In this document: positions 50,157 through 63,145 of the stretch, piece by piece
Layout of the letters: each line of letters begins with the position of its first letter
How positions within the stretch are numbered: position 1 is the first letter of the stretch
From: Marinomonas sp. SBI8L
Lineage (GTDB): Bacteria; Pseudomonadota; Gammaproteobacteria; Pseudomonadales; Marinomonadaceae
NCBI RefSeq assembly: GCF_001624705.1
Contig: NZ_JSEO01000019.1
Coordinates: forward strand, 1-64,000
Length of the DNA: 64,000 bases
Direction of reading: 5' to 3'
Translations under genes and position numbers: made by a program
The notes under the pieces: generated by a model
The model's input: only the letters and a program-made list of their open reading frames with translations
What the model was told of the DNA's origin: nothing
Database searches by the model: none

Positions 50157-50276
50157 ACTAGGGCACATATTTGGCCTTGGCCTAAAACGAATTTAGAAAA
50201 AACGAATTTGGCGTCCATTTGCTGCAAACAGCAAGTGCATAAAACGCTAAACGAATAGGAAAACTTGGAGAACGTC

Positions 50277-51053
50277 ATGGCACGTGGAATAAATAAAGTC
50301 ATCTTGATCGGTAATGCGGGCAATGATGCAGAAGTACGTTATATGCCTTCTGGTGGCGCGGTTGCAAATGTCAGCCTAGCAACAACAGAAAGCTGGAGAG
50401 ACAAGACAACAGGTCAAATGCAAGAGCGTACTGAGTGGCACCGTGTTTCTTTTATGGACCGTGGTAACTTCCGCCTAGGTCAAATTGCCGGTGACTACAT
50501 CAAGAAAGGTTCTAAAGTGTATGTTGAAGGTTCTCTTCGTACACGTGAGTGGGAAAAAGACGGCATTAAACGTTACACCACAGAAATCATTGCTAACGAA
50601 ATGCAATTGCTAGATGGTCGTGGCGATCAAGCTGGCCAAGGTGGTTTTGACAACAATGCACAAAACGGTGGTTTTGGTGGTCAACAGCAGCAAGCGCCAG
50701 CAATGAACAATATGGGGAACCAAGGTGGCTTCCAGCAAGCACCTCAGCAACAAGCGCCTCAACAAAATAATGGTTTCCAACAGCGTGCACCGCAACAACA
50801 AGCACCGCAGCAAAACCAACAGCCTCAAAATAATGGTTTCCAACAGCAAGCGCCGCAGCAGCAACAAGCTCAGCCGCAATCTTTTGGTAGCTGGGGCCAG
50901 CAACCACAACAAGCTGCTCCACAGCAAAATCAACAGCAAGCTGCGCCTCAACAGCGTGCGCCACAGCAACAGGCTCAACAACGCCCAGCGGCACCAGCAC
51001 CTAAGCCTGCAGCACCTAGCTTTGATGATTTTGATGATGACATTCCTTTCTAA
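50277..51053 (+). CDS. ssb: Single-stranded DNA-binding protein with long Q/P/A linker
   Basis: A 258-residue SSB, much longer than E. coli SSB (178). The OB-fold (about 1-110, [20 protein letters not shown] onward) is standard. The disordered linker (about 115-245) is made of repeated Gln/Pro/Ala runs with Asn-Gly-Phe-Gln punctuation. The tip DDFDDDIPF, which recruits repair and replication partners, is intact. A near-identical 21-base DNA segment recurs at 50763-50783 and 50826-50846, 63 bases apart and in frame, so the linker has grown by repeat duplication. TTGGAG lies upstream. Confidence 0.96.
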
Positions 51054-51083
51054 GGAACAGATTGTCTAGATTGAAATACAGAA

Positions 51084-51112
51084 AGCCTCGCTAAATTAGC
51101 GGGGCTTTTTTT
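51084..51112 (+). terminator. ssb terminator
   Basis: A 10-bp stem AGCCTCGCTA (51084-51093) / TAGCGGGGCT (51097-51106) with a 3-base loop and a T run to 51112. It marks the boundary between the conserved uvrA-ssb block and the insert that follows. Confidence 0.9.
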
Positions 51113-51233
51113 GGGCTGTAAATAGAGCTGAAATCTTACCCGTAAAGTACGGTCGCTATTATTCAATGTAGAGTGTTTTTTATAGTATGATTTAAGTTAT
51201 TGAAATAGTTAGATAATTGATTGGCAGGGACTT

Positions 51234-54200
51234 ATGCAATTTGTTAAAAACGGACCAAATATACCTGATGAACTCCTTCAGGCGCATGAAGATGGCAATG
51301 TCATTTTCTTCTGTGGAGCTGGTATATCTTATCCTGCCGATTTACCAGGCTTTAAGGGTCTAGTGGATAAAATATATCTTGAGGTTGGTGAAACTAAGAA
51401 TGAAATAGAATCAAATGTTTATGACCGTGAGCAATTTGATAGCACTCTTGATCTTCTTGAAAGAAGAGTTGTTGGTGAAAGGCAGACTGTTAGAAAAGCG
51501 TTATTAAAAAGCTTAAAACCAAACTTCAGAAAAAAGCATGCTTTACGCACCCATGAGTCTCTTTTGAAGCTTTCTTGCGACAATGAAGGAATGACTCGTT
51601 TAGTTACAACAAACTTTGACAGGATTTTTGAGAAGGTTATAAAGCAGCGGAAGCTTGATATAAACTCTTTTGTTGCACCATTACTGCCAATACCTAAAAA
51701 AAGTCGTTGGGATGGATTGGTCTACTTACATGGTTTGATTCCAGACAAAGAAAACTACTCAGATTTAAATCGCCTAGTTTTCACTAGTGGTGACTTTGGG
51801 CTGGCTTATTTAACAGAACGTTGGGCATCGCGCTTTGTCTCTGAATTATTCCGAAGTTATGTTATTTGTTTTGTTGGATATAGCATTAATGATCCGGTAC
51901 TTAGATATATGATGGATGCACTAGCTGCAGACCGTATGCTAGGAGAAGATCTACCAGATGCTTATGCTTTTGCTGATTTTAAAGCTGGTAATGAGGAAGT
52001 CGCAGCGAATGAGTGGAAGGCTAAGAATGTAATTCCGATTCTCTACGAAGATCATTCAAAATTACATGACACCTTAGATAGTTGGGCTCAAACATACTCA
52101 GAAGGATCTCTAGGTAAAGAAAGTATTGTAGCAAAGTATGCAATGTTCCCACCTACAGCGAGTACTCAAAATGATGACTTTGCAGGAAGGGTTATCTGGG
52201 CATTATCTGAGCCAAATGGCTTACCTGTTAAACGATTCTCTGAGCTAAATCCCTGCCCTCACATAGATTGGCTTGAGATAATTTCGGAGAGACGCTACTC
52301 AAAAAAAGATTTACCTCGACTTGGCATTTCTACATTAACAGAGGGTAATTCAGACTTAAGTTTTAGTTTAGTTGAAAGGCCTTCTCTTCCTAGCGAAAGT
52401 ATATACGACTCTATTCGTTCTTTGCATTATGAAAACAGTAATTGGGACCGTGTAATGTCTCAAATTTGCAACTGGCTTTTAAGGCATCTAAACGACCCGA
52501 GACTTGTATATTGGTTAATAAAATATAGAGGCGAGCTTACTAGTAGTTTTAAAAGTACCCTTGAAAGAAAACTGTCTGCGTTAAACAAGCTTGATGATAA
52601 TGAAAAGCTGATTTTACAAGAGAATTCACCGAACGCTATCCCTGATGATGAAATGTTGTCTCTTTGGAAAATGCTACTAGCAGGCAGAATCCATACAGCA
52701 TCAAATGATTCTCGATTGTATAACTGGGTAGGCCGAGTAAAGCAACATGGCTTTAATACGCTCTTAAAGCTAGAGCTGAGAGAGTTATTAGCTCCAAAAA
52801 TATCCATTAAGAAGCCATATAGCTTGAGTACACGACGTTATGATTGGGAATTAAAGCTAACATATAATTTAAAACACGATATAGAGAAAATAACCTCATT
52901 AATAGGGCCTGAAAATTTAGCAGAACTCTTTGATGATTTTCAAGTGCTGCTTGTTGACGCATTAGATTTGGCCCAAGAGATGGGGGAGGCTGATAACCTC
53001 ATAGATAATTCCCACTGGGACTTGCCATCAATTTCTCATCATATGCAAAATCGAGGTTATCATGACTGGATAATTTTAATCGAGCTGTTGAGGGACTCTT
53101 GGTTAGAGGTTTTGTCTAAAAATATTTTATTAGCTAGGGAAAAAGCTATTCTATGGTTTCAAAAACCTTACCCTGTTTTTAAAAGGCTTGCTTTATTTGC
53201 TGCAAGTTATGATCAGGTTATTGCTCCAAAACAATGGTGTGATTGGCTATGTCAAAATGATGCTTGGTGGTTGTGGGATACACAAACTCAGCGTGAAACT
53301 ATGAGGCTACTGGTGCTTCAAGGTGAAAATTTAGATCAACACAGTCAATCCTGTTTAGAGGAGGCTATTCTATCAGGTCTCCCTCGTCGGATGTTCCGAG
53401 AAGATTTGGAAGTAAGCCAATTTCAAGAAATGAATGAACATACCATATGGTTACATTTAGCTAAGCTTGATAGTGGTGGAGTAAATCTTTCAGACAACAC
53501 AGAAGCATACTTCAAAGAGTTATCATCTAATAATCCAAAATGGGAGCTTGATAATAAATATCAAAAAGATGAGTTTTCCCATTGGATGAGTGGTTCGGGT
53601 GATCCTGATTATGAGGATAAGCGAACATACGAATTGGCACCAACAAAGAAGTTAGATTTAATGGAATGGCTGATGGAGAGTAAGTCTAATTATTCGTTCG
53701 AACATGGAGATAATTGGAGAGATGTTTGCATAGAAGATATGAGTTTAGCCTTCAACTCTCTTTATGATTTATTTAATGGAAAAAAATTTCCTGAACATCG
53801 ATGGAATGTTGCGTTTTCAGCTTGGTGTAGCGATAAAACAATAGCTGATTCGTGGATATTAGCTGCTCCAATTATAGTCACATTCTCTGATGACCAGTTT
53901 GTAACATGTATTCATGGTATTGGCCGGTGGCTTCAAGCTGTATCTAAAAATGTAACATTACATGCTGAAAAATTTCTTCTTTTAGTAGAGCGAGTATTAA
54001 CGATTTACCCTGAAAGTGAGAATACAGGAAATGTTGCAACTGTTTCTTCTGCTATTAATCATCCTGTTGGCATATCAACAGAAGCATTATTTAATTACTG
54101 GTTTACTACTGGGTTGCAGGATAATACAAAAATCGATGGAAACTTTTCTCAAATTTTCCATCTTATTTGTATTGATAAAACCAATGCTTTTGATCAGGGA

Positions 54201-54971
54201 AAGGTAATTGTAGCGTCTCGGGCTATGGCTTTGTATCGTGTTGACCCAATTTGGACGAAAGATAATTTAGTCCCTTTATTTGACTGGGACAAGAATGAGA
54301 GGGTGGCTAGTATAGTTTGGAACGGCTTTTTATGGGGAGCGAGAATATACCTCCCGCTAATGGAAGAGTTGAAAGATTCATTTATTGATACAGCAATGAG
54401 GCTCCCTTTTTTAGAAGGTGGTGAAAGGAGGTATATAGAATTTTTAATTCATATTTCTTTAGAGAAAAATGCGATTTTAAACGATAAAGAAGTTCATCTT
54501 GTATTTAATAAACTATCGCTTAAGTCCTTAGAAAATGCTGCAAATATTCTAAATCAAATTCTTAGTGCTTCAGAAAGAAAAGAAGAGCTTTGGAAGAATA
54601 GAGTACTCCCTCTATGGAAAAGTGCTTGGCCAAAATCGAAAGATAAGCTGACACCTAAGATCTCAGACTCATTGATAAGATTTTGTTTAGATTCTGGCGA
54701 TGAGTTTCCAAATGCCTTTTTGCTGTTGAAAGATTATATTGGAAAAGTTAAACAGCCGGATTATGTTATTAGCTTAATGGCCCAGTCGAAAACATCGGAA
54801 AAATTTCCAATAGAAACCCTCGAGTTATTAGATCTTATTGTTGATCAAAATAGCAATAGAGCTCCTTATTCTCTAACAGAAGCTTTAGAGGTATTAGGGA
54901 AGTCTAATGGGTTTTGTAATAAATCTCAGTTTAAAAAGTTAATAGAGTTTAACAGACGCTTTGGATGCTAG
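51234..54971 (+). CDS. SIR2-domain anti-phage defence protein, Dsr1-like
   Basis: A 1245-residue protein with an N-terminal SIR2 domain (about 1-290). Catalytic landmarks: FFCGAGIS (25-32), TTNFD (125-129, Asn127), YLHG (164-167, His166) and FVGYSINDP (213-221). Known defence sirtuins with this motif set degrade NAD+ on phage sensing and arrest the cell. The other 950 residues are mostly helical with no motif of known enzymatic function. A conserved-looking block, NHPVGISTEAL (about 942-952), recalls the DUF4020 region I associate with Dsr1-type proteins; this is memory, not a search. Such proteins work alone, with the C-terminal part as sensor. The gene is visibly A+T-rich with many AGA and ATA codons, unlike its neighbours, suggesting acquisition. 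AGGGA lies just upstream. Confidence 0.82.
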   Translation: MQFVKNGPNIPDELLQAHEDGNVIFFCGAGISYPADLPGFKGLVDKIYLEVGETKNEIESNVYDREQFDSTLDLLERRVVGERQTVRKALLKSLKPNFRKKHALRTHESLLKLSCDNEGMTRLVTTNFDRIFEKVIKQRKLDINSFVAPLLPIPKKSRWDGLVYLHGLIPDKENYSDLNRLVFTSGDFGLAYLTERWASRFVSELFRSYVICFVGYSINDPVLRYMMDALAADRMLGEDLPDAYAFADFKAGNEEVAANEWKAKNVIPILYEDHSKLHDTLDSWAQTYSEGSLGKESIVAKYAMFPPTASTQNDDFAGRVIWALSEPNGLPVKRFSELNPCPHIDWLEIISERRYSKKDLPRLGISTLTEGNSDLSFSLVERPSLPSESIYDSIRSLHYENSNWDRVMSQICNWLLRHLNDPRLVYWLIKYRGELTSSFKSTLERKLSALNKLDDNEKLILQENSPNAIPDDEMLSLWKMLLAGRIHTASNDSRLYNWVGRVKQHGFNTLLKLELRELLAPKISIKKPYSLSTRRYDWELKLTYNLKHDIEKITSLIGPENLAELFDDFQVLLVDALDLAQEMGEADNLIDNSHWDLPSISHHMQNRGYHDWIILIELLRDSWLEVLSKNILLAREKAILWFQKPYPVFKRLALFAASYDQVIAPKQWCDWLCQNDAWWLWDTQTQRETMRLLVLQGENLDQHSQSCLEEAILSGLPRRMFREDLEVSQFQEMNEHTIWLHLAKLDSGGVNLSDNTEAYFKELSSNNPKWELDNKYQKDEFSHWMSGSGDPDYEDKRTYELAPTKKLDLMEWLMESKSNYSFEHGDNWRDVCIEDMSLAFNSLYDLFNGKKFPEHRWNVAFSAWCSDKTIADSWILAAPIIVTFSDDQFVTCIHGIGRWLQAVSKNVTLHAEKFLLLVERVLTIYPESENTGNVATVSSAINHPVGISTEALFNYWFTTGLQDNTKIDGNFSQIFHLICIDKTNAFDQGKVIVASRAMALYRVDPIWTKDNLVPLFDWDKNERVASIVWNGFLWGARIYLPLMEELKDSFIDTAMRLPFLEGGERRYIEFLIHISLEKNAILNDKEVHLVFNKLSLKSLENAANILNQILSASERKEELWKNRVLPLWKSAWPKSKDKLTPKISDSLIRFCLDSGDEFPNAFLLLKDYIGKVKQPDYVISLMAQSKTSEKFPIETLELLDLIVDQNSNRAPYSLTEALEVLGKSNGFCNKSQFKKLIEFNRRFGC

Positions 54972-55007
54972 GGTATTATCTCTTAAAGTAGATCTGGATT
55001 GATATTT

Positions 55008-55042
55008 TAAGAGATCTCAGATAAATTGTCTGAGATCTCTTA
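55008..55042. terminator. Perfect 14-bp inverted repeat after the SIR2 gene
   Basis: TAAGAGATCTCAGA (55008-55021) pairs perfectly with TCTGAGATCTCTTA (55029-55042) around a 7-base loop. There is no T-tract. It may terminate or stabilise the SIR2 mRNA, or be a remnant of the insertion. Confidence 0.5.
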
Positions 55043-55185
55043 TGTTAGAGTGATTTCCAAAAAAGAGAAATGTGATTTTGTTTTGGAGTTATCGTCTCTC
55101 CGTTTTTATAGCTCCTCTATAATTAGAAAAAATAACGCATAAATCTTAGTGAATGAATTTAAAAGTAAGAAAGGGTTAATGGAAT

Positions 55186-55689
55186 ATGATCTTTTTGAAG
55201 AGTAAAGTTAAAAATATAGCTTTCTTTTTAGGACTTATTACTGCAGTGATAACTTTGTTAGATTATACAAATGAATTTTACTTTTGGGCTTCAGGTAATG
55301 ATTCTGTTTTTACTGAAGATGATAAGTGGGTTGGAAGTTACAAGTGTATCGGCTCAGAAAGGATTCACCTTGAATTGTATACAAAAGAAGTGGTAGAGAA
55401 AAATGGCGAATTTAATTTAACGATGGAAGCGGCATTTTCTGAAAAGGATCGATTTGATGGAGCCACACTTAGACACGGAAGTTTTGAAGTTTCAGGTAAA
55501 TATTTTCCAAGAAGTGGTAATGTTGATTTAAAACCTTTAGGACCAGATGATTTTATTGTAAAACCTAAGAGTTCGTATACAACAATTGGCTTTATAGGGA
55601 AGGTAACTTCGAATAAAATTAATGGGAGTGTTTGGAATCCTGATGGGTATCAAGGATGTAAGGACTTTAGAGTAAACAAGTTAATTTAA
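55186..55689 (+). CDS. Small membrane-anchored protein of unknown function
   Basis: I do not recognise this 167-residue protein. One hydrophobic segment (about 8-28) anchors it, and the rest looks like an extracytoplasmic beta-rich domain, with two cysteines (near 53 and 158) that could form a disulfide (YKCIGSE and QGCKDFR). It is A+T-rich like the SIR2 gene before it, lies in the same insert and is closed by a strong terminator. Its position suggests co-acquisition, but it is separated from the SIR2 gene by 214 bases and a hairpin, so it is probably a separate transcription unit. No link to defence can be shown. Confidence 0.7.
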   Translation: MIFLKSKVKNIAFFLGLITAVITLLDYTNEFYFWASGNDSVFTEDDKWVGSYKCIGSERIHLELYTKEVVEKNGEFNLTMEAAFSEKDRFDGATLRHGSFEVSGKYFPRSGNVDLKPLGPDDFIVKPKSSYTTIGFIGKVTSNKINGSVWNPDGYQGCKDFRVNKLI

Positions 55690-55843
55690 ACTTCTCATTT
55701 ACTTTTTTACCTGAGTGAAACTTGATAACTGTGATTGTTCATTTGTCATAATAAAACCAGTTATTAATATCTTCAATGATGCTTGAATATTGACCGTTAA
55801 ATACTTTCAACTTTGCTTTGTCAAAGTCCTGTAGGTATTGAAC

Positions 55844-55871
55844 CAATATCCGACAGGGTATTGTTTTTTTT
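55844..55871 (+). terminator. Terminator at the end of the insert
   Basis: CAATATCC (55844-55851) / GGGTATTG (55856-55863) with loop GACA and eight T residues. It is a good rho-independent terminator facing the convergent thioesterase gene. Confidence 0.85.
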
Positions 55872-55902
55872 ATTACTAATGAGGAATTAAGAGCAAGCTA
55901 AG

Positions 55903-56367
55903 CTAATCAGGCTTTCTCTCCACCGCCACATAAGCCCCTTTCAGTGTCATAGCGACCTGATCACCTTGTTTGACCTCGATTTCTAGGTTGAGGCGACCAC
56001 GACCTTTGTTGTCGAGGAAAGACATAAATGTGGTTAAGTCTGTTTCATCCGGAAGGCAAGTCTCGGCATAAAAATCATCTGTGATAGGGGCGAGATAGTT
56101 GATCTGGCTATCTCGGATCATAACATCACAATCTCGACCTTGTTCACGTAGGTAGAGAGTAACCAGCGCCCAACCACATAAGGTTGCAACCGTAGAAAGA
56201 GAACCACCAAAGCCCGTACCTTTATCATTCACATTAGGTGTTAATGCCGCTGGCATTTGCAGTGACTGACCATCATAAACAAGATCACCAAAGCCCATAT
56301 GATTAATCAGCGGAATTTGTCCTTTTAGCCAAATAAGAAACTCGTCGGCGGTTTGCTGCTGGGTCAT
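55903..56367 (-). CDS. Hotdog-fold thioesterase (YiiD C-terminal type)
   Basis: A 154-residue single hotdog domain. The PNVNDKGTGFGGSLSTVA segment and the IRDSQINYLAPI strand are typical of the putative thioesterase domain found at the C-terminus of E. coli YiiD. It probably hydrolyses an acyl-CoA; the substrate is unknown. It lies 56 bases downstream of the regulator gene on the same strand and may be read with it. Confidence 0.82.
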   Translation of the reverse strand: MTQQQTADEFLIWLKGQIPLINHMGFGDLVYDGQSLQMPAALTPNVNDKGTGFGGSLSTVATLCGWALVTLYLREQGRDCDVMIRDSQINYLAPITDDFYAETCLPDETDLTTFMSFLDNKGRGRLNLEIEVKQGDQVAMTLKGAYVAVERKPD

Positions 56368-56423
56368 ATTCGTCTCCGTGAATTATCTTGGTGAAATTGA
56401 GTTTGTAGGCTAAGTGCTATCAA

Positions 56424-57083
56424 TTAATTGGTGGACTTGAAGGCTTCTAACTGAGCTTTAGTAAAGTCCTGCAGGTAGCTAATTAATTCTGCCGATGCAT
56501 TCAAGGCCGTGTCTTTATCCGAGAGAAGTAGGGCGTTCATCTGTCTGATATAAAGGTCTGTACAGTAGGCTTGGTCCTTCGCTGTGGCGTAGTAGCACCA
56601 AAAGCGTCGTGAGAGCGCTTGGGTGGTTTTGATCGAGGCAAGAATAAATTCATTTTTAGAAGATTGAGCCAAGATATGGTGCATTTGGCGTAAGACATCC
56701 ATAAAACCATTTCTGTCTTCAGCATCGAGCTGGGTGAGGGTCATGATGACTTTTTCCACTTCCCTCTTGTCAGCTTCGTTCATTCTATCAATGGCTTTAT
56801 CAATACATAGACTTTCAATTAGAGATCTTGGCTCCAGCAGTTTGAGCATAGTCATAGGATTAAGCTCAGGAATGACAACGCCAGCACGGGATAAGCGGAC
56901 TAGGTTTTCATTGGCCAGCTTCATCAAGGCTTCTCGTACCGGTGTACGACCTAAGTTGAGAAACTCACTGATTTCGGTTTCTGTCATAACAGAGCCCGGT
57001 TCAATGAGGCAATCGACAATTGCTTCTTCTAACTTCTCTGCTGCAACTTCTGCTTTCGTTCTTTTCTCTAACGGGTTGTGCAT
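56424..57083 (-). CDS. FadR-subfamily GntR transcriptional regulator
   Basis: A 219-residue GntR regulator. The N-terminal winged helix (about 15-70, EISEFLNLGRTPVREALMKL) is followed by an all-helical FCD ligand-binding domain, with the metal-site-like MHHILAQSSKN. Such proteins usually repress catabolic operons until a small acid binds. It overlaps the upstream enolase-superfamily gene by 16 bases and is therefore the probable local regulator of this cluster. A candidate operator lies over the cluster promoter at 62311-62330. Confidence 0.9.
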   Translation of the reverse strand: MHNPLEKRTKAEVAAEKLEEAIVDCLIEPGSVMTETEISEFLNLGRTPVREALMKLANENLVRLSRAGVVIPELNPMTMLKLLEPRSLIESLCIDKAIDRMNEADKREVEKVIMTLTQLDAEDRNGFMDVLRQMHHILAQSSKNEFILASIKTTQALSRRFWCYYATAKDQAYCTDLYIRQMNALLLSDKDTALNASAELISYLQDFTKAQLEAFKSTN

Positions 57084-58207
57084 GATTGAATAATATCCCA
57101 GTTTAGCTTAATGCCAAGGCCATCTTGTTCTTTATCTATTGTAACCATGCCATCCTGATCAATGCTATAAGGATTTTTGATTAGGTGTTGGCGCAACAGA
57201 GATGGGCTGGTGGAATATTCAAGAGGCTCTTGTTTGTTCTGGGTTGATAAAAAGTGGCTGTTTACTGCAATTGTGATGTCTGTGTTATAGGCATGAGGCA
57301 CGATACGTTTGTTCTGTTTATTCATTAAACCTCTTAGCTTGATGACTTCGCTGACTCCTCCGAATAGGGTGATATCCGGTTGAGCGATATCAAATGACTG
57401 TTTTTCTAAATAGGGTAGAAACTCTTTGCAGGTTGTCATGCCAAGGTCACCGACGCCTATCGGAATATGAGTTAGCTGCTTTAAGGCAATGTGATCTTCA
57501 AGGTTTTCTAAGTTAAATGGCGCTTCTATCCATTTAAAATCTAATGCCTCTAAGGTACTAAGGAAGGGTTTTAATTGTGCTAACGAATTGAATTCTAGTG
57601 CCACATCTAGCATTAATTCTATATCTCGACCAACTAGGTGTCTCAGATAATTAAGGTTGGATCGCGTTTTATCAAAGTTGCTCCACCAAGGCTCAACACA
57701 AATTTTAATTCGCTTCATACCTTTTTCTAACAAGGGCATGATTTGAGCTTTGATGCCGTCTTCGGTATCCGCTAAAGGGTAAATGGTGGCATAGGCAGGT
57801 AATCTTTTATGCTTACGTTCACCAAAGTAATGATGTAATGGGACTTTATTGAGGCGTGAAAATAGGTCCCAAATAGCAATATCAAGCGCACTAATAGCGT
57901 GAATAACAGCGCCATTACGTCCATGCCAATAACTACCTTGATACATTTTTTGCCAAAGACGTTTTGGGTCATCTAGGGCTTCGCCTATTAACAAAGCGGC
58001 AAGACCTTGAGATAGATGGTTATAGCTTGGCGCTTCAATGAGAGCTTTAATTATTTGCGGAGGCGAGTCGCTTTCACCTATGCCATACATGCCATTGTCT
58101 GCTGTAACAACAACCACAACATTTTGGTAGCTACCCTCAAAACGAACAAAGTCCGCTTGAGGGTCTTGTAAGCAATAAACGTCAATTTTCTCGATACGAT
58201 TTAGCAT
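57068..58207 (-). CDS. Enolase-superfamily protein (mandelate racemase/muconate lactonizing type), A
   Basis: A 379-residue member of the mandelate racemase side of the enolase superfamily, which abstracts a proton alpha to a carboxylate. By eye alignment to mandelate racemase: Arg166-x-Lys168 at the KxK site, metal ligands Asp201, Glu228 and Asp254 (Asp in place of the usual Glu), and a His305/Asp278 dyad. Glu330 fits the electrophilic Glu. These residues support an active acid-sugar dehydratase, racemase or epimerase. The substrate is unknown. It is transcribed with the second family member 9 bases upstream. Confidence 0.85.
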   Translation of the reverse strand: MLNRIEKIDVYCLQDPQADFVRFEGSYQNVVVVVTADNGMYGIGESDSPPQIIKALIEAPSYNHLSQGLAALLIGEALDDPKRLWQKMYQGSYWHGRNGAVIHAISALDIAIWDLFSRLNKVPLHHYFGERKHKRLPAYATIYPLADTEDGIKAQIMPLLEKGMKRIKICVEPWWSNFDKTRSNLNYLRHLVGRDIELMLDVALEFNSLAQLKPFLSTLEALDFKWIEAPFNLENLEDHIALKQLTHIPIGVGDLGMTTCKEFLPYLEKQSFDIAQPDITLFGGVSEVIKLRGLMNKQNKRIVPHAYNTDITIAVNSHFLSTQNKQEPLEYSTSPSLLRQHLIKNPYSIDQDGMVTIDKEQDGLGIKLNWDIIQSCTTR

Positions 58208-58216
58208 GAACTTAAC

Positions 58217-59341
58217 CTAAAGATTGAACTCTTTGCGTTGATAAATGAAAGGCTCGATCTGCTCCCAATCTAACTCTACTCCTAACCCTGCTTTAGTTGG
58301 GGCTTGGATATAACCATCTGTATCAGGTCTAAATACTTGTTTAGCACCAAACTCATATTTCTCATAAGGGGCAGCTTGTTCAAAATAATGGCAGTTATTG
58401 TGGGCTAGCATAATATGAAGGTTAGCCGCTTGAGTTAGGGTATAACCCCATGACTGCACTTCCGCTATTCGGTTTAGCTCTTTGGTAAATTGCATCACTT
58501 TATTGGCATTAGTAAAGCCGCCAATACTAGTAACATCAAAACGGCTTCTATCCCAGCAACCTTCTTTCAAACCATACTCAATAAGTGAAGGGTGAGGGAG
58601 GCTATTACCGCCGCTGATAACATCTAAATTAAGACGTGAAACCAATACCTGATAGCCAGTGAAGTCTGAATCAGGCAGGGGCTCTTCGAAGAATTCCCAC
58701 TCGTATTCATCAAGTAGTTGCCCCATTTTAATGGCTTCTTCTAGGCTGTAATTGGCGTCAACATCAAGGCTCCAACCAATGTTTTTACTGCCAAACTCAG
58801 CTTGTAGCGCTTCAACTAGCTCTCTATCGGTTTGATAAACACAAGGGGGATGAATTTTAATGGCGTTAAAGCCTTGTGCTAGCATCTCGTGGCAATAATC
58901 TAGGTATGCCTCTATGGTGCTGAATACAGGGCTAGACGCATAAGCACGGACTTTTTCTTGTTCTGCTCCTAGCATCTTATAGATAGGCAAACCTAATGAT
59001 TTGGCTTTTGCATCATGTAATGCAATATCAAATAAGGAGCTGGAAATATGCTTGAGTGGTACATACTTAGCTTGCATATCTTGATGGATTTCAGGAATTT
59101 CATCTAGATGACGGCCCAGAATAAAAGGTGACATCAAGGACGCACTATGAAATGCGGTTTGGTCGAACTCATGCTCAGTGTAAGTCGTAAGGCCAGCAAT
59201 ACCTTCTAGACCATTATCAAAAGTAAGACGAGTTACTATCATTGCTTCACTCATAGGCCCTAGAAAAGAAGACCAACTGATCTTCTTTCCATTTGGGCCT
59301 ATCGCGAAAAGCTCAATTTTTTTCACAATAGGCGCAGACAT
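58217..59341 (-). CDS. Enolase-superfamily protein, B, with atypical active site
   Basis: A 374-residue enolase-superfamily protein, only distantly like its neighbour. The KxK position reads Lys162-x-His164. Metal ligands Asp195 and Glu219/220 are present. At the third ligand position the sequence is SGGN (243-246) instead of a Glu-containing motif, and where many relatives carry a catalytic His it reads VQSW (Gln296). If this hand alignment is right, it lacks canonical catalysis and may bind metal differently, use another mechanism, or act non-catalytically. It lies 1 base after the BCCT stop, so it is translationally coupled to the transporter. Confidence 0.8.
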   Translation of the reverse strand: MSAPIVKKIELFAIGPNGKKISWSSFLGPMSEAMIVTRLTFDNGLEGIAGLTTYTEHEFDQTAFHSASLMSPFILGRHLDEIPEIHQDMQAKYVPLKHISSSLFDIALHDAKAKSLGLPIYKMLGAEQEKVRAYASSPVFSTIEAYLDYCHEMLAQGFNAIKIHPPCVYQTDRELVEALQAEFGSKNIGWSLDVDANYSLEEAIKMGQLLDEYEWEFFEEPLPDSDFTGYQVLVSRLNLDVISGGNSLPHPSLIEYGLKEGCWDRSRFDVTSIGGFTNANKVMQFTKELNRIAEVQSWGYTLTQAANLHIMLAHNNCHYFEQAAPYEKYEFGAKQVFRPDTDGYIQAPTKAGLGVELDWEQIEPFIYQRKEFNL

Positions 59342-59342
59342 A

Positions 59343-60896
59343 TTAGGCGTTATCCTCTTTGATATATTTGCTGGTGGTGATCATCATAAGTACTAAGATT
59401 CCCATAACAGGTAAACCAACCAATACGGATGCAGTTTGCATACTTTTTAGCCCACCTAGGAACATTAAAGTCAGTGGTAATACGGCGATAGCAAAACACC
59501 AGAATAGTCGATTAGAGCGTTCTGGCTCTTGACCTTCACCTAACTCTTTTGTTGTTGCACATGCCATCACGTAAGCAGCTGAGTCAAAGGTTGTCGCAAG
59601 TAGTACTATGCCAGAAGCCGCTAGAGCAATAAGGACTAAGCCACTCGCTGGTAAGGTTTTAAAGAGTTCGATAATGGCAACAGCAACGCCTTTTGTATTG
59701 ACCAGTTCAGACATAGGAAGTATGCCTTCCATTTGTAGATTAATACCGTATCCGCCTAGAACTATGTAGAAAAGGGCACAACCAGAAGAGCCATAAACTA
59801 GCATACCAAAGATAACTTCACGGATAGTACGACCACGAGAAATACGAGTAACAAACATACCCATGAATGGTGCGTACGCTACCCACCAGGCCCAATAGAA
59901 AACAGTCCAAGCTTGAGGGAAACCACTCTTCTCGACACTGTCAGTCCAAGTGCTCATCTTGATATAGTTTTCAGCCATATAGCCTAAAGAATCCATGCCT
60001 AAACCTAGGATGAATTTTGTTGGCCCTACGACAAATACATAAGCAACAATGGCAAGCGTTAATAGCGTTGAGAAAGTACTAAGGCGTTTAATGCCTTGAG
60101 AAAGACCAAGACCGCTACTTACAGAGAAAATTGCAGTACAAATAAGAATGACAGAGATGTCCATATAAGTGCCGCCGGCTACTCCTAAGACTTCTGCTAA
60201 AGCATTGCTTATCATAGGGGTGCCTAGGCCAAGAGAGGTGGCTGCTGCACCTAATACCCCAAAGATGAAGGTGTAATTGATAATGGTACCAAGAGGCCCG
60301 TCGACAAGGTCACCTAATGCGCCACGGCATGATTCACTCACCTTATAGATGTGTTTTTGACGCACATAATAAATATATGAGATAGCAATTGTCGGCACAC
60401 AGTAAAGTGCCCATGCAGTCGGGCCCCAATGGAATATGCCGTAGCCTTGCGCCACTGTGTACATTTCAGTGGTTTTAGCTTCGATACCAAAAGGAGTCCA
60501 AGCATAATGGTAACCCCATTCAGTGCCGCCCCAAAGTAAAAGACCCGAAGCAATACCAGCAAGAAAAACCATGGCTCCCCATGCACCTTTCGAAAACTCC
60601 GCTTCTGCATTTTTATCTGCACTTAGCTTGATATTGCCATGGCGAGAAAAAGCCAATGCCAATAAGAAAATAAGTGCACCAAGGCCTATGCCGAGAAAAG
60701 CAAAATCAAAGCTGTTTGTCATCCATTTAAAAAGCGCATTGATGGTTGTTTTAGCAGACTCTGGGAAGAGAATAATAGGTAATGCCATAGCAACAATGAT
60801 CATTAAACTAATGACCTGCATTCTGCGATCGGTTTCAACGCTCGCAGTTTGAGTTTGGGTGTTTGATGCCCCGAGGTTTTGAGAAGACACGCTCAT
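59343..60896 (-). CDS. BCCT-family transporter
   Basis: A 517-residue betaine/carnitine/choline transporter-family protein with 12 membrane segments. The family signature in segment 8 (FYWAWWVAYAPFMGMFVTR) is clear. BCCT members import quaternary-amine zwitterions such as betaine or carnitine, by sodium or proton symport or by exchange. It is in a catabolic cluster rather than next to osmoregulatory genes, and lacks a long C-terminal osmosensing tail, so nutrient uptake is more likely. This is the strongest clue that the pathway substrate is a betaine-like or related acid. Confidence 0.92.
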   Translation of the reverse strand: MSVSSQNLGASNTQTQTASVETDRRMQVISLMIIVAMALPIILFPESAKTTINALFKWMTNSFDFAFLGIGLGALIFLLALAFSRHGNIKLSADKNAEAEFSKGAWGAMVFLAGIASGLLLWGGTEWGYHYAWTPFGIEAKTTEMYTVAQGYGIFHWGPTAWALYCVPTIAISYIYYVRQKHIYKVSESCRGALGDLVDGPLGTIINYTFIFGVLGAAATSLGLGTPMISNALAEVLGVAGGTYMDISVILICTAIFSVSSGLGLSQGIKRLSTFSTLLTLAIVAYVFVVGPTKFILGLGMDSLGYMAENYIKMSTWTDSVEKSGFPQAWTVFYWAWWVAYAPFMGMFVTRISRGRTIREVIFGMLVYGSSGCALFYIVLGGYGINLQMEGILPMSELVNTKGVAVAIIELFKTLPASGLVLIALAASGIVLLATTFDSAAYVMACATTKELGEGQEPERSNRLFWCFAIAVLPLTLMFLGGLKSMQTASVLVGLPVMGILVLMMITTSKYIKEDNA

Positions 60897-60952
60897 AATT
60901 TTTCCAACATATTGTTATTATTTAGTGGTTACCCTGACTGGCTTGGAAAGCG

Positions 60953-62281
60953 TTAAGCTTGCTGCATCAGTTGGGCGATTCGGTTACCGTCGATCGCTTG
61001 AAAATCAAGCGCTTCCATAATCGATATATGTGCAGCAAGGGCTGCTGCTTTTCCATATTCAAAGCATTGGGCTGTGACACGACAGCTTGCTAGTGCTTCG
61101 TGTTCACTGCTTAAACAGCGGCCCGCAACAATGAGGTTTTTGCCTTCTTTAGGCACTAAGGTATGAAAGGGAACTTCATAGTAGTCATCCACTAGCCATT
61201 CAGTTCTTGGCTTGTCGCCATAATGCAATTCGATCGGCCAAGCGCTTTTCACCATGGCATCTGAGAATTTTGCGCCTGAGACAACATCATGATTGGTTAA
61301 GGTTTTAACACCATCGATGGAGCGAGTTTGTCGAACACCCACTTCGGTGGCGTAATCAATAAAGTAGCTATTTTCACAGCCAGGCAAATTTGCCTTCATA
61401 AAATTGAAAAATGCCTCAGCTTGATAAATTGAGAATTGCTCGGCTTCTGTATGATCGACAGGGTCTGTAACATCCAAAGCGCGTTTGTCAAAACCTGTGA
61501 TTTTCGTGGCATTAACGAGAAGCTCACCTGGGTTCACCGTAGGGAATAGCCAAACTTTTTTACGCAGTAGGTCATCTTCTGCTTCAAGCATGCTAACGAC
61601 TTTTGGGGGGGAAATAGTGTTCTCACCCCAATAGTTTAGGTAAGTCTCCATATCCACATTACCGACTTTAAACATCATTGTTGGGTTTTGAATGATGCCG
61701 TTTTGACCCTTACGAGTTTTTTGCCCCAACTTGAATACCAAGTCTGCATCACCACTGGCATCGATAAAGCGTTTCGCTGATACAGAGGTAAAGCCAGACT
61801 TTGTATGAAGTACTAGGCCGGTAACTGTGTCTTTTTCAGAAATTACATCAACAACTTGAGTGTGATAAAGGACAGAAATGTTTGGTTGGCGAAGCATGTC
61901 AGTAGCGACTTTTTTGTATTTAGCGCAATCATGAGTAGCAACCCAGGTTTTTCCGTATATTTGAGGCTCAGTTAAGCCACCTGCTGCATGCAAGGCATCA
62001 CAAAAACGCCCAGCGAAACCAAATACAAGTTGTTCTGCTTGTACCTCACTTGGATTCTCAACAGACTTATATAAACCACAGACTGTACCTGATAAGCCTG
62101 CGACAGCTGCACCACCACAAAAGCCTAAGCGCTCTATGATAAGCACTTTGAGATCCAGTTCGGCAGCGGTGACTGCTGCTGCGATACCAGCAGGGCCTGC
62201 GCCAGTGACAATAACGTCATAGTCACCAAAGCAAGGTAAGTCGGTTTTATAGTCAGCAGGGAGGTTGAGGCAATAGCTCAT
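60953..62281 (-). CDS. FAD-dependent oxidoreductase
   Basis: A 442-residue flavoprotein of the FAD_oxidored type. The N-terminal dinucleotide motif DVIVTGAGPAGIAAAV, the following LIIERLGFCGGAAVAG and the C-terminal FAD block LIVAGRCLSSEHEALAS are clear. FIDASGDADL is typical of this family. It probably oxidises or reduces the pathway substrate. The ATG at 62281 is used; a TTG and GTG just upstream are alternatives. It is the first gene of the cluster, 56 bases before the BCCT gene, and a good promoter precedes it. Confidence 0.85.
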   Translation of the reverse strand: MSYCLNLPADYKTDLPCFGDYDVIVTGAGPAGIAAAVTAAELDLKVLIIERLGFCGGAAVAGLSGTVCGLYKSVENPSEVQAEQLVFGFAGRFCDALHAAGGLTEPQIYGKTWVATHDCAKYKKVATDMLRQPNISVLYHTQVVDVISEKDTVTGLVLHTKSGFTSVSAKRFIDASGDADLVFKLGQKTRKGQNGIIQNPTMMFKVGNVDMETYLNYWGENTISPPKVVSMLEAEDDLLRKKVWLFPTVNPGELLVNATKITGFDKRALDVTDPVDHTEAEQFSIYQAEAFFNFMKANLPGCENSYFIDYATEVGVRQTRSIDGVKTLTNHDVVSGAKFSDAMVKSAWPIELHYGDKPRTEWLVDDYYEVPFHTLVPKEGKNLIVAGRCLSSEHEALASCRVTAQCFEYGKAAALAAHISIMEALDFQAIDGNRIAQLMQQA

Positions 62282-62310
62282 AGTTAGCACCAAGTATGTT
62301 TATATTTGTA

Positions 62311-62330
62311 GAATATATTTAAAATATATT
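62311..62330. promoter_or_regulatory. A/T palindromic element, candidate operator
   Basis: Two self-complementary AATATATT blocks separated by three bases cover the -10 box of the minus-strand promoter. It could be the operator of the cluster's GntR regulator. It may also just be A/T-rich promoter sequence. Confidence 0.35.
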
Positions 62331-62350
62331 TTAACTCTTGCTGCTGTCAA
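62323..62350 (-). promoter_or_regulatory. Promoter of the FAD/BCCT/enolase cluster
   Basis: On the minus strand a perfect TTGACA (62350-62345) and TATATT (62328-62323) are spaced by 16 bases, about 40 bases before the FAD-oxidoreductase start. Confidence 0.75.
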
Positions 62351-62572
62351 GCACTGTTTTACGACGGATTTAAATTTGCTTTCTTAATCAATTCGTTAGG
62401 TTTTAAAATAATTGCGTGAGCTTATACATCGTGTAAATTTCAAAAAAGCGCTACAATCCCGCTTCTATCTGGCTTGTATACTTGTATATAAGCATTTGAG
62501 AAGGCAGTGTTTAAAGCGGCAATAGAGTTGAAACGAAAGCTCATTGTTATCTTGGTAGTGGTTGAGGTTGTT

Positions 62573-63145
62573 GTGGAAGAAGATGATTTTTCATTGTTCG
62601 CGGAAGAAGTTGCGGGCATAAAAAAAATGCGAAAAGATGAAGTCTATCTTGGCAAAAAAGGGCCGAGTGTAGATTTTAGTGAGCGCAAAAAAGCCGCCAC
62701 AATCGCACCTGAAAAAGACAGCAATCACTTATCTGCAGACTATGTGGAAAAAGTCGACATCAACGATGTACTTGCCTACAAAAAAGACGGTGTACAAGAA
62801 GGGGTTTTTAAACGCTTACGCCAAGGGAAATATGGCATAGAATCTCGTTTAGATTTACATAGAAGGACGGTAAATCAGGCCCGAGAATTGGTGTATCAAT
62901 TTGTGGGTGACTGTATGCGCAATGATATTCGCGTTGCTATTTTGGTGCATGGTAAAGGCGATCGTACGCCAGATAATCAAGCAACGCTTAAGAGCTACAT
63001 TAATAAGTGGCTTAAAGACATGGATGATGTCATGGCGTTTCATACCGCTCAACAATACCATGGTGGTTTAGGCGCCGTTTATATTCTTTTTAAGAAGAGC
63101 GAAAAAGCACGTCTTGAAGCCTGGGAGCAACATCAAAAGCGTTAA
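62573..63145 (+). CDS. Smr-domain protein (SmrA-like)
   Basis: A 190-residue protein with a C-terminal Smr domain (about 90-180). LDLHRRTVNQAREL (93-106), HGKG (126-129) and GGLGAVYILFKK (164-175) are the family motifs. Smr proteins are RNA or DNA endonucleases; recent work links members to rescue of stalled or collided ribosomes. The GTG at 62573 is chosen because GAGG lies just upstream and the protein then begins VEEDDFSLFAEEVAG, as in relatives. A longer GTG start at 62507 adds an odd hydrophobic Val-rich stretch and is less likely. Confidence 0.85.
   Translation: MEEDDFSLFAEEVAGIKKMRKDEVYLGKKGPSVDFSERKKAATIAPEKDSNHLSADYVEKVDINDVLAYKKDGVQEGVFKRLRQGKYGIESRLDLHRRTVNQARELVYQFVGDCMRNDIRVAILVHGKGDRTPDNQATLKSYINKWLKDMDDVMAFHTAQQYHGGLGAVYILFKKSEKARLEAWEQHQKR

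Follow-up and report, generated by a model that had tools for sequence, protein, structure and literature searches.

A distant Dsr1 gene in a variable interval between ssb and an Smr-domain gene of Marinomonas

To which defence family does the large SIR2-domain gene beside ssb in Marinomonas sp. SBI8L belong, what might its product sense, and how did it come to lie there? These questions concern a 64,000-nucleotide (nt) stretch of this genome (contig NZ_JSEO01000019.1, positions 1 to 64,000, forward strand; hereafter the window), in which an earlier note, made from the letters alone, had proposed a single-gene anti-phage NADase. The reading that best explains the data as a whole, and which we consider highly probable, is that of an intact defence-associated sirtuin 1 (Dsr1) with a latent SIR2 NADase and a solenoid sensor, carried as cargo at a site between ssb and an Smr-domain gene (smr). 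Of the two sirtuin defences made of a single gene, Dsr1 has received less study; its family is believed to break down cellular nicotinamide adenine dinucleotide (NAD+) during infection.

Identity of the gene beside ssb

The gene and its parts, with lengths in amino acids (aa), are as follows.
51234..54971, plus strand: dsr1, defence-associated sirtuin 1, 1245 aa (NCBIfam and PADLOC Dsr1 models)
51234..52103, plus strand: SIR2 NADase domain, residues 1-290, with GAGIS at 28, TTNFD at 125, YLHG at 164 and GYS at 215
52104..54968, plus strand: C-terminal, mostly helical solenoid, residues 291-1245, the presumed sensor or regulatory part
53025..53054, plus strand: residues 598-607, motif PSIxxHxQNR, strongly conserved within the C-terminal part (Dsr1 alignment)
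54054..54071, plus strand: INHPVG motif, residues 941-946, in the sensor block proposed by the earlier note (Dsr1 alignment)

Judged by its sequence, the open reading frame (ORF) at 51234-54971 encodes an ordinary, intact Dsr1 of the known anti-phage family. It opens with ATG and runs for 1245 codons in an unbroken frame, with a start codon backed by relatives that begin with MQFVKNGP or near variants. The curated equivalog model for Dsr1 (NCBIfam NF041818) matched residues 1-1240 with 1564.9 bits against a cut-off of 1400, a score that places the match beyond chance. The PADLOC Dsr1 model (PDLC02183) gave 1438.6 bits for residues 1-1242 on profile positions 1-1272 of 1275, and the long C-terminal part was colinear with that profile. 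Under Pfam's own cut-offs SIR2_2 was the sole match (77.2 bits), and the Dsr2 model did not match. The profile searches thus upheld the proposed single-gene Dsr1 across its full length. The four SIR2 motifs and NHPVGISTEAL (residue 942) lie where they had been read, the catalytic residues N127 (in TTNFD) and H166 (in YLHG) had been numbered correctly, and both are invariant in 18 Dsr1 rows.

The window protein therefore shares with Dsr1 its full length, SIR2 motifs, catalytic N and H, C-terminal motifs and single-gene layout. Other members lie on plasmids and viral-type contigs. It differs in being chromosomal, between ssb and smr, in its distance from the nearest intact copies found (about 45-47% identity), and in having no recognised mobile-element gene in the 51-56 kb stretch around it. 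This distant copy is new and its kind is already known; its genomic address is the less ordinary part. Family, motif conservation, predicted fold and insertion at a variable site are the established part of the account.

Mechanism, sensor motifs and competing explanations

By analogy with the family and with DSR2, the protein may be expected to have NADase activity, a solenoid that acts as sensor, oligomeric assembly and a protective effect against phage. The N-terminal SIR2 domain would be a latent NAD+ hydrolase with N127 and H166 as catalytic residues, restrained by the helical solenoid of about 950 residues until a trigger binds; on sensing a phage component the solenoid would release the SIR2 domain, NAD+ would be lost and phage replication would stop. 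Published passages on DSR2 describe NAD+ degradation by the full-length protein, not by the SIR2 domain alone, upon addition of tail tube protein, N133A/H171A serving as the inactive control (PMC10973363; PMC11290490). Since the plan is common to DSR2, Dsr1 should likewise be kept off by its solenoid until trigger binding. According to a review passage that cites Garb et al. 2022, DSR1 differs from DSR2 in blocking phage replication with no death of the cell (PMC10952713), so the earlier statement that Dsr1 and Dsr2 deplete NAD+ was too strong in merging two behaviours. Judged by titles, abstract openings and passages, none of the papers that our literature search returned deals with an activator or a structure of Dsr1.

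One alternative is a new type of defence sirtuin with its own sensor, Dsr1-like at the N terminus only. In favour of such a type, the end branch of the window copy is long (1.24) in a 20-row tree, where this copy stands at an unresolved fork with a top identity of 46%, and the same genus has a divergent Dsr1-like clade. However, the equivalog and PADLOC models extend over the whole length, beyond the SIR2 part, and the PSIxxHxQNR and INHPVG motifs of the window protein are those of Dsr1 at large; we consider a new type improbable. The divergent clade comprises 1241-aa proteins encoded on the minus strand in two species of the genus (L045 7096-10818 in genome G035 and L046 6744-10466 in G019), which are 21-22% identical to the window copy, lack PSIxxHxQNR and have similar genes on one side.

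Conservation was counted in 17 Dsr1 rows; the count and the tree exclude L133, which is N-terminally truncated as annotated. P598, S599, I600, H603, Q605 and N606 were identical in 17/17 rows and R607 reached 0.82, while in INHPVG I941, H943, P944 and G946 were identical in all 17, with N942 at 0.94 and V945 at 0.76. Three relatives at 21-23% identity have lost PSIxxHxQNR and kept N942 and G946 (3/3) and I941 (2/3). NHPVGISTEAL had been proposed to mark a sensor, and hence a trigger, of its own; a motif common to nearly all Dsr1 is no such marker, and this proposal is not supported. The PSIxxHxQNR loop (residues 595-608) had a predicted local distance difference test score (pLDDT) below 50 in a model of the C-terminal part. 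An invariant loop modelled with no confident fold suggests a putative binding role, and the shallow alignment (13 rows) is an alternative cause of the low score. Tentatively, and we think it rather unlikely, the Dsr1 solenoid might hold one conserved putative binding site formed by this loop and INHPVG (941-946).

A second alternative adds a partner, the next ORF downstream:
55186..55689, plus strand: co-inserted ORF of 167 aa, whose N terminus looks by eye like a membrane segment

In such a two-gene system this membrane-type protein would be a regulator or immunity protein of Dsr1. Both genes are A+T-rich, with a guanine-plus-cytosine content (GC) of 0.369 for dsr1 and 0.327 for the 167-aa ORF, and both lie within the segment replaced relative to a sister genome (see below), but between them lie 214 nt that contain an inverted repeat, and the relatives of the smaller ORF occur in stretches lacking Dsr1. 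Its sole relative in the genus (G041) is in such a stretch, and of 39 loci fetched, almost all of which carry Dsr1, it matched solely the Dsr1-free L039. It had no match in Pfam, PADLOC or NCBIfam. On the strength of these Dsr1-free relatives we reject it as a partner; it is probably not one, and a two-gene system is very unlikely. A 168-aa ORF after the Nitrosococcus Dsr1, tried as a counterpart because of its similar size, gave no tblastn match at E up to 1.

A Dsr2-type protein sensing phage tail tube protein is more doubtful still: 41 DSR2 chains head the Foldseek list for the window protein model and the SIR2-plus-solenoid layout is the same, yet Dsr2 is absent from the PADLOC matches up to E 1, the PADLOC Dsr2 model (PDLC02184) has no match in the organism's own genome at E 0.001, and a Dsr1 profile meets DSR2 chains only near residues 18-53, at E 0.15 or worse. 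The two proteins share this plan and differ in length (1005 residues in DSR2, 1245 here), with no detectable sequence kinship outside SIR2. DSR2 was absent among the 50 matches listed for the C-terminal model alone, an absence that excludes nothing, and no solved chain matched the window protein apart from SIR2-domain proteins. Two further systems were rejected, as the neighbours of dsr1 are ssb and the 167-aa ORF, which has no family match: SIR2-HerA for want of an adjacent HerA, and Thoeris for want of a ThsB partner, the best ThsA model covering only profile positions 12-224 of 478 (31.5 bits).

The SIR2 fold itself was present in the predicted structure. Set against an intact, regulated Dsr1 are the quality of the full-length model (predicted template modelling score 0.48), in which residues 147-167, containing H166, have pLDDT below 50, and the Foldseek rows for DSR2, which came without global superposition (TMq 0.16-0.20, root mean square deviation 34-45). 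The distance to the nearest intact relatives counts on the same side; a broken copy, L149, reaches 56% identity in its best segment. We nevertheless retain the Dsr1 reading at the strength given above.

The ssb-smr interval as a variable site

The borders of the site, and a hairpin within it, are as follows.
50265..51053, plus strand: ssb, the core gene that bounds the variable site on the left (DNA match in 49/49 genomes of the genus)
51081..51112, plus strand: terminator-like hairpin with a T-run, 3' of ssb (13-pair stem, -19 kcal/mol, z -4.76 by folding)
62507..63145, plus strand: Smr-domain gene, the core gene that bounds the site on the right (Pfam Smr)

The accessory interval between the core genes spans 51054-62506 (11,453 bp) in the window, and dsr1 begins 180 bp after the ssb stop codon. 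The hairpin suggests that dsr1 is probably its own transcription unit. A consensus scan found no sigma-70-like promoter between ssb and dsr1 (shuffles 1.1); it also missed the terminator-like hairpin at 51081-51112 that folding reveals, so its terminator result is unreliable.

Both composition and comparison with a sister genome indicate a foreign insert adjoining ssb, as had been proposed. The GC of dsr1 falls under the minimum of the 44 other window ORFs of at least 140 aa (0.441 +/- 0.018, range 0.403-0.489). Its AGR share of arginine codons (0.50 versus a background mean of 0.18) and ATA share of isoleucine codons (0.39 versus 0.12) are raised yet within the ranges of these ORFs, so that of the A+T richness and AGA/ATA codons first remarked on, only the low GC stands apart. 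The sister genome, G036, is 88% identical in DNA up to the ssb stop codon, continues with unrelated sequence, and resumes similarity (88%) in a thioesterase gene near window position 55914. The replaced segment contains Dsr1 and the 167-aa ORF in the window and a NsnA-NsnB-NsnC cassette in G036 (405.6, 404.6 and 278.3 bits). The insert had been placed between two conserved blocks, which holds on the left (ssb) and fails on the right: the block at 55903-62293 is not conserved, its thioesterase gene occurring in 2/49 genomes of the genus (own included), and it is the Smr-domain gene (62507) that forms the conserved border on this side. This cassette (a thioesterase, a GntR regulator, two mandelate-racemase-type enolases, a BCCT transporter and an FAD oxidoreductase) occupies the remainder of the interval.

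We fetched ssb stretches from 48 other genomes of the genus, two of them from G024, giving 49 stretches. An smr homologue was in view after ssb in 39/49; the other ten comprise two short stretches, the second ssb copy of G024 and seven others. Among these 39 gaps, which exclude the window itself, 24 exceed 600 bp and 15 are empty (52-550 bp, lacking any ORF of 80 aa), and none of the five intervals that follow is longer than 600 bp in any stretch (0/39, 0/35, 0/35, 0/33 and 0/33). Defence genes found after ssb include SIR2 with HerA in both G005 and G041, AbiEii with PDC-M60A and PDC-M60C in G010, and LmuB in G018; smr is out of view in G041 and G018, so their genes lie after ssb and are not proven occupants of the interval. 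Variable content that includes defence genes, between fixed core genes and with empty sites, is what defines a core defence hotspot (cDHS), and the ssb-smr interval is a probable defence hotspot of the genus.

Several features of the occupants tell against this. Those unrelated to defence are numerous after ssb (for example an AraC-type regulator and an acyltransferase), and seven stretches hold only a single shared ORF of 142-158 aa. Ten of 20 occupant ORFs, picked mainly by size and scanned individually with PADLOC, had no family at E 1e-8. A joint scan of 74 further ORFs at E 1e-15, which covers a subset of occupants and does not assign matches to members, gave few families: mad3 in four, AbiEi in two, and PDC-S20, PDC-M60B and kinase models with one member each (among 25 of 34 families listed). 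As evidence of defence, the kinase match in G044 and that to HEC-09 in G006 are weak, and mad3 also matches one control ORF. The controls, 44 other window ORFs, yielded mad3 and mad8 only (one member each, E 1e-15); they are mostly core genes, so the comparison does not reach other accessory sites.

Two occupants merit description in their own right. After ssb in G018 (L095) lies a run of large ORFs (449, 516, 754, 664 and 996 aa), of which PADLOC matches the 996-aa ORF alone (LmuB, 243.9 bits); the run is possibly a divergent Lamassu-type or undescribed system. Between ssb and smr in G035 (L093 1357-5775) is a 1473-aa STAND-type protein (Pfam nSTAND_NTPase5) that PADLOC leaves unmatched at E 1e-8; it is a candidate defence protein encoded by a single gene.

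The Dsr1 segment has no recognised integrase or transposase ORF, and its ends carry no direct repeats, only weak internal pairs being found; an imperfect inverted pair (51080-51100/55897-55917, 76%) has its first arm in the ssb hairpin. Our data suggest that dsr1 probably arrived as cargo exchanged between ssb and smr, and recombination between homologous flanks would be a fitting route. A passage on Pseudomonas aeruginosa hotspots raises homologous recombination, together with transduction, for its own sites (PMC10250203). As described there for cDHS1 and cDHS2, diverse defence systems are swapped between fixed core genes with no single obvious mobile element (PMC10250203), as at ssb-smr; here, however, the borders are ssb and smr, the genus is another and the genomes are far fewer (49). 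Those sites are described as occupied in the majority of strains (PMC10250203), whereas 15/39 ssb-smr sites are empty.

Relatives, origin and implications

One other genome of the genus carries a Dsr1 relative (G018, 47% identity). Outside the genus, six loci align over most of the length at 37-49% identity in the best segment (Photobacterium, Legionella sp., Rhizobium, Thalassotalea, Paraburkholderia and a deltaproteobacterial metagenome-assembled genome). The Dsr1 family model matches 14 of 369 genomes in the class, and four of these, own genome included, score above its cut-off. Eight plasmid records match at 41-45% identity over 97-100% of the query (seven annotated as Dsr1), a scan of viral contigs gave 17 loci, and 50,697 phage records gave no match at E 1e-5. 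In the 20-row tree the G018 copy clusters with plasmid-collection copies from Shewanella, E. coli and Pantoea (support 98/99), apart from the window copy, and the two same-genus copies were probably gained separately. Ten viral-type contigs (L137, L138, L140-L144, L146, L148 and L152) have an ORF of 405-407 aa directly 5' of Dsr1, which is itself broken in L148; the presumed resemblance of this ORF to an integrase suggests a mobile carrier.

Other loci hold altered forms of the gene. In Photobacterium aquae (L006/L136 6001-9755) Dsr1 is split into slightly overlapping ORFs of 467 and 786 aa among what we take to be Mu-like prophage head genes, and this split copy is also on an IMG/VR viral contig. 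A tandem Dsr1-like series in G094 (L044 5498-17958, minus strand) has one intact copy of 1242 aa, the others being broken into frames of 645 + 618 aa and 705 + 492 aa. Apparent remnants, N-terminal matches of about 52-75 residues, occur in G195 (L027 1501-1701), G218 (L042) and G158 (L043), that of G195 with an apparent transfer-messenger RNA gene (by eye) before it and transposase-like sequence after it.

The window copy offers a distant family member for trigger screens, and PSIxxHxQNR and INHPVG give concrete residues for mutation. If the single conserved binding site were real, all Dsr1 would recognise the same, widely conserved ligand from phage or host, not one each, the opposite of the distinct sensor first predicted. 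The ssb-smr interval, several of whose occupants match no defence model, is a simple place to seek further defence systems.
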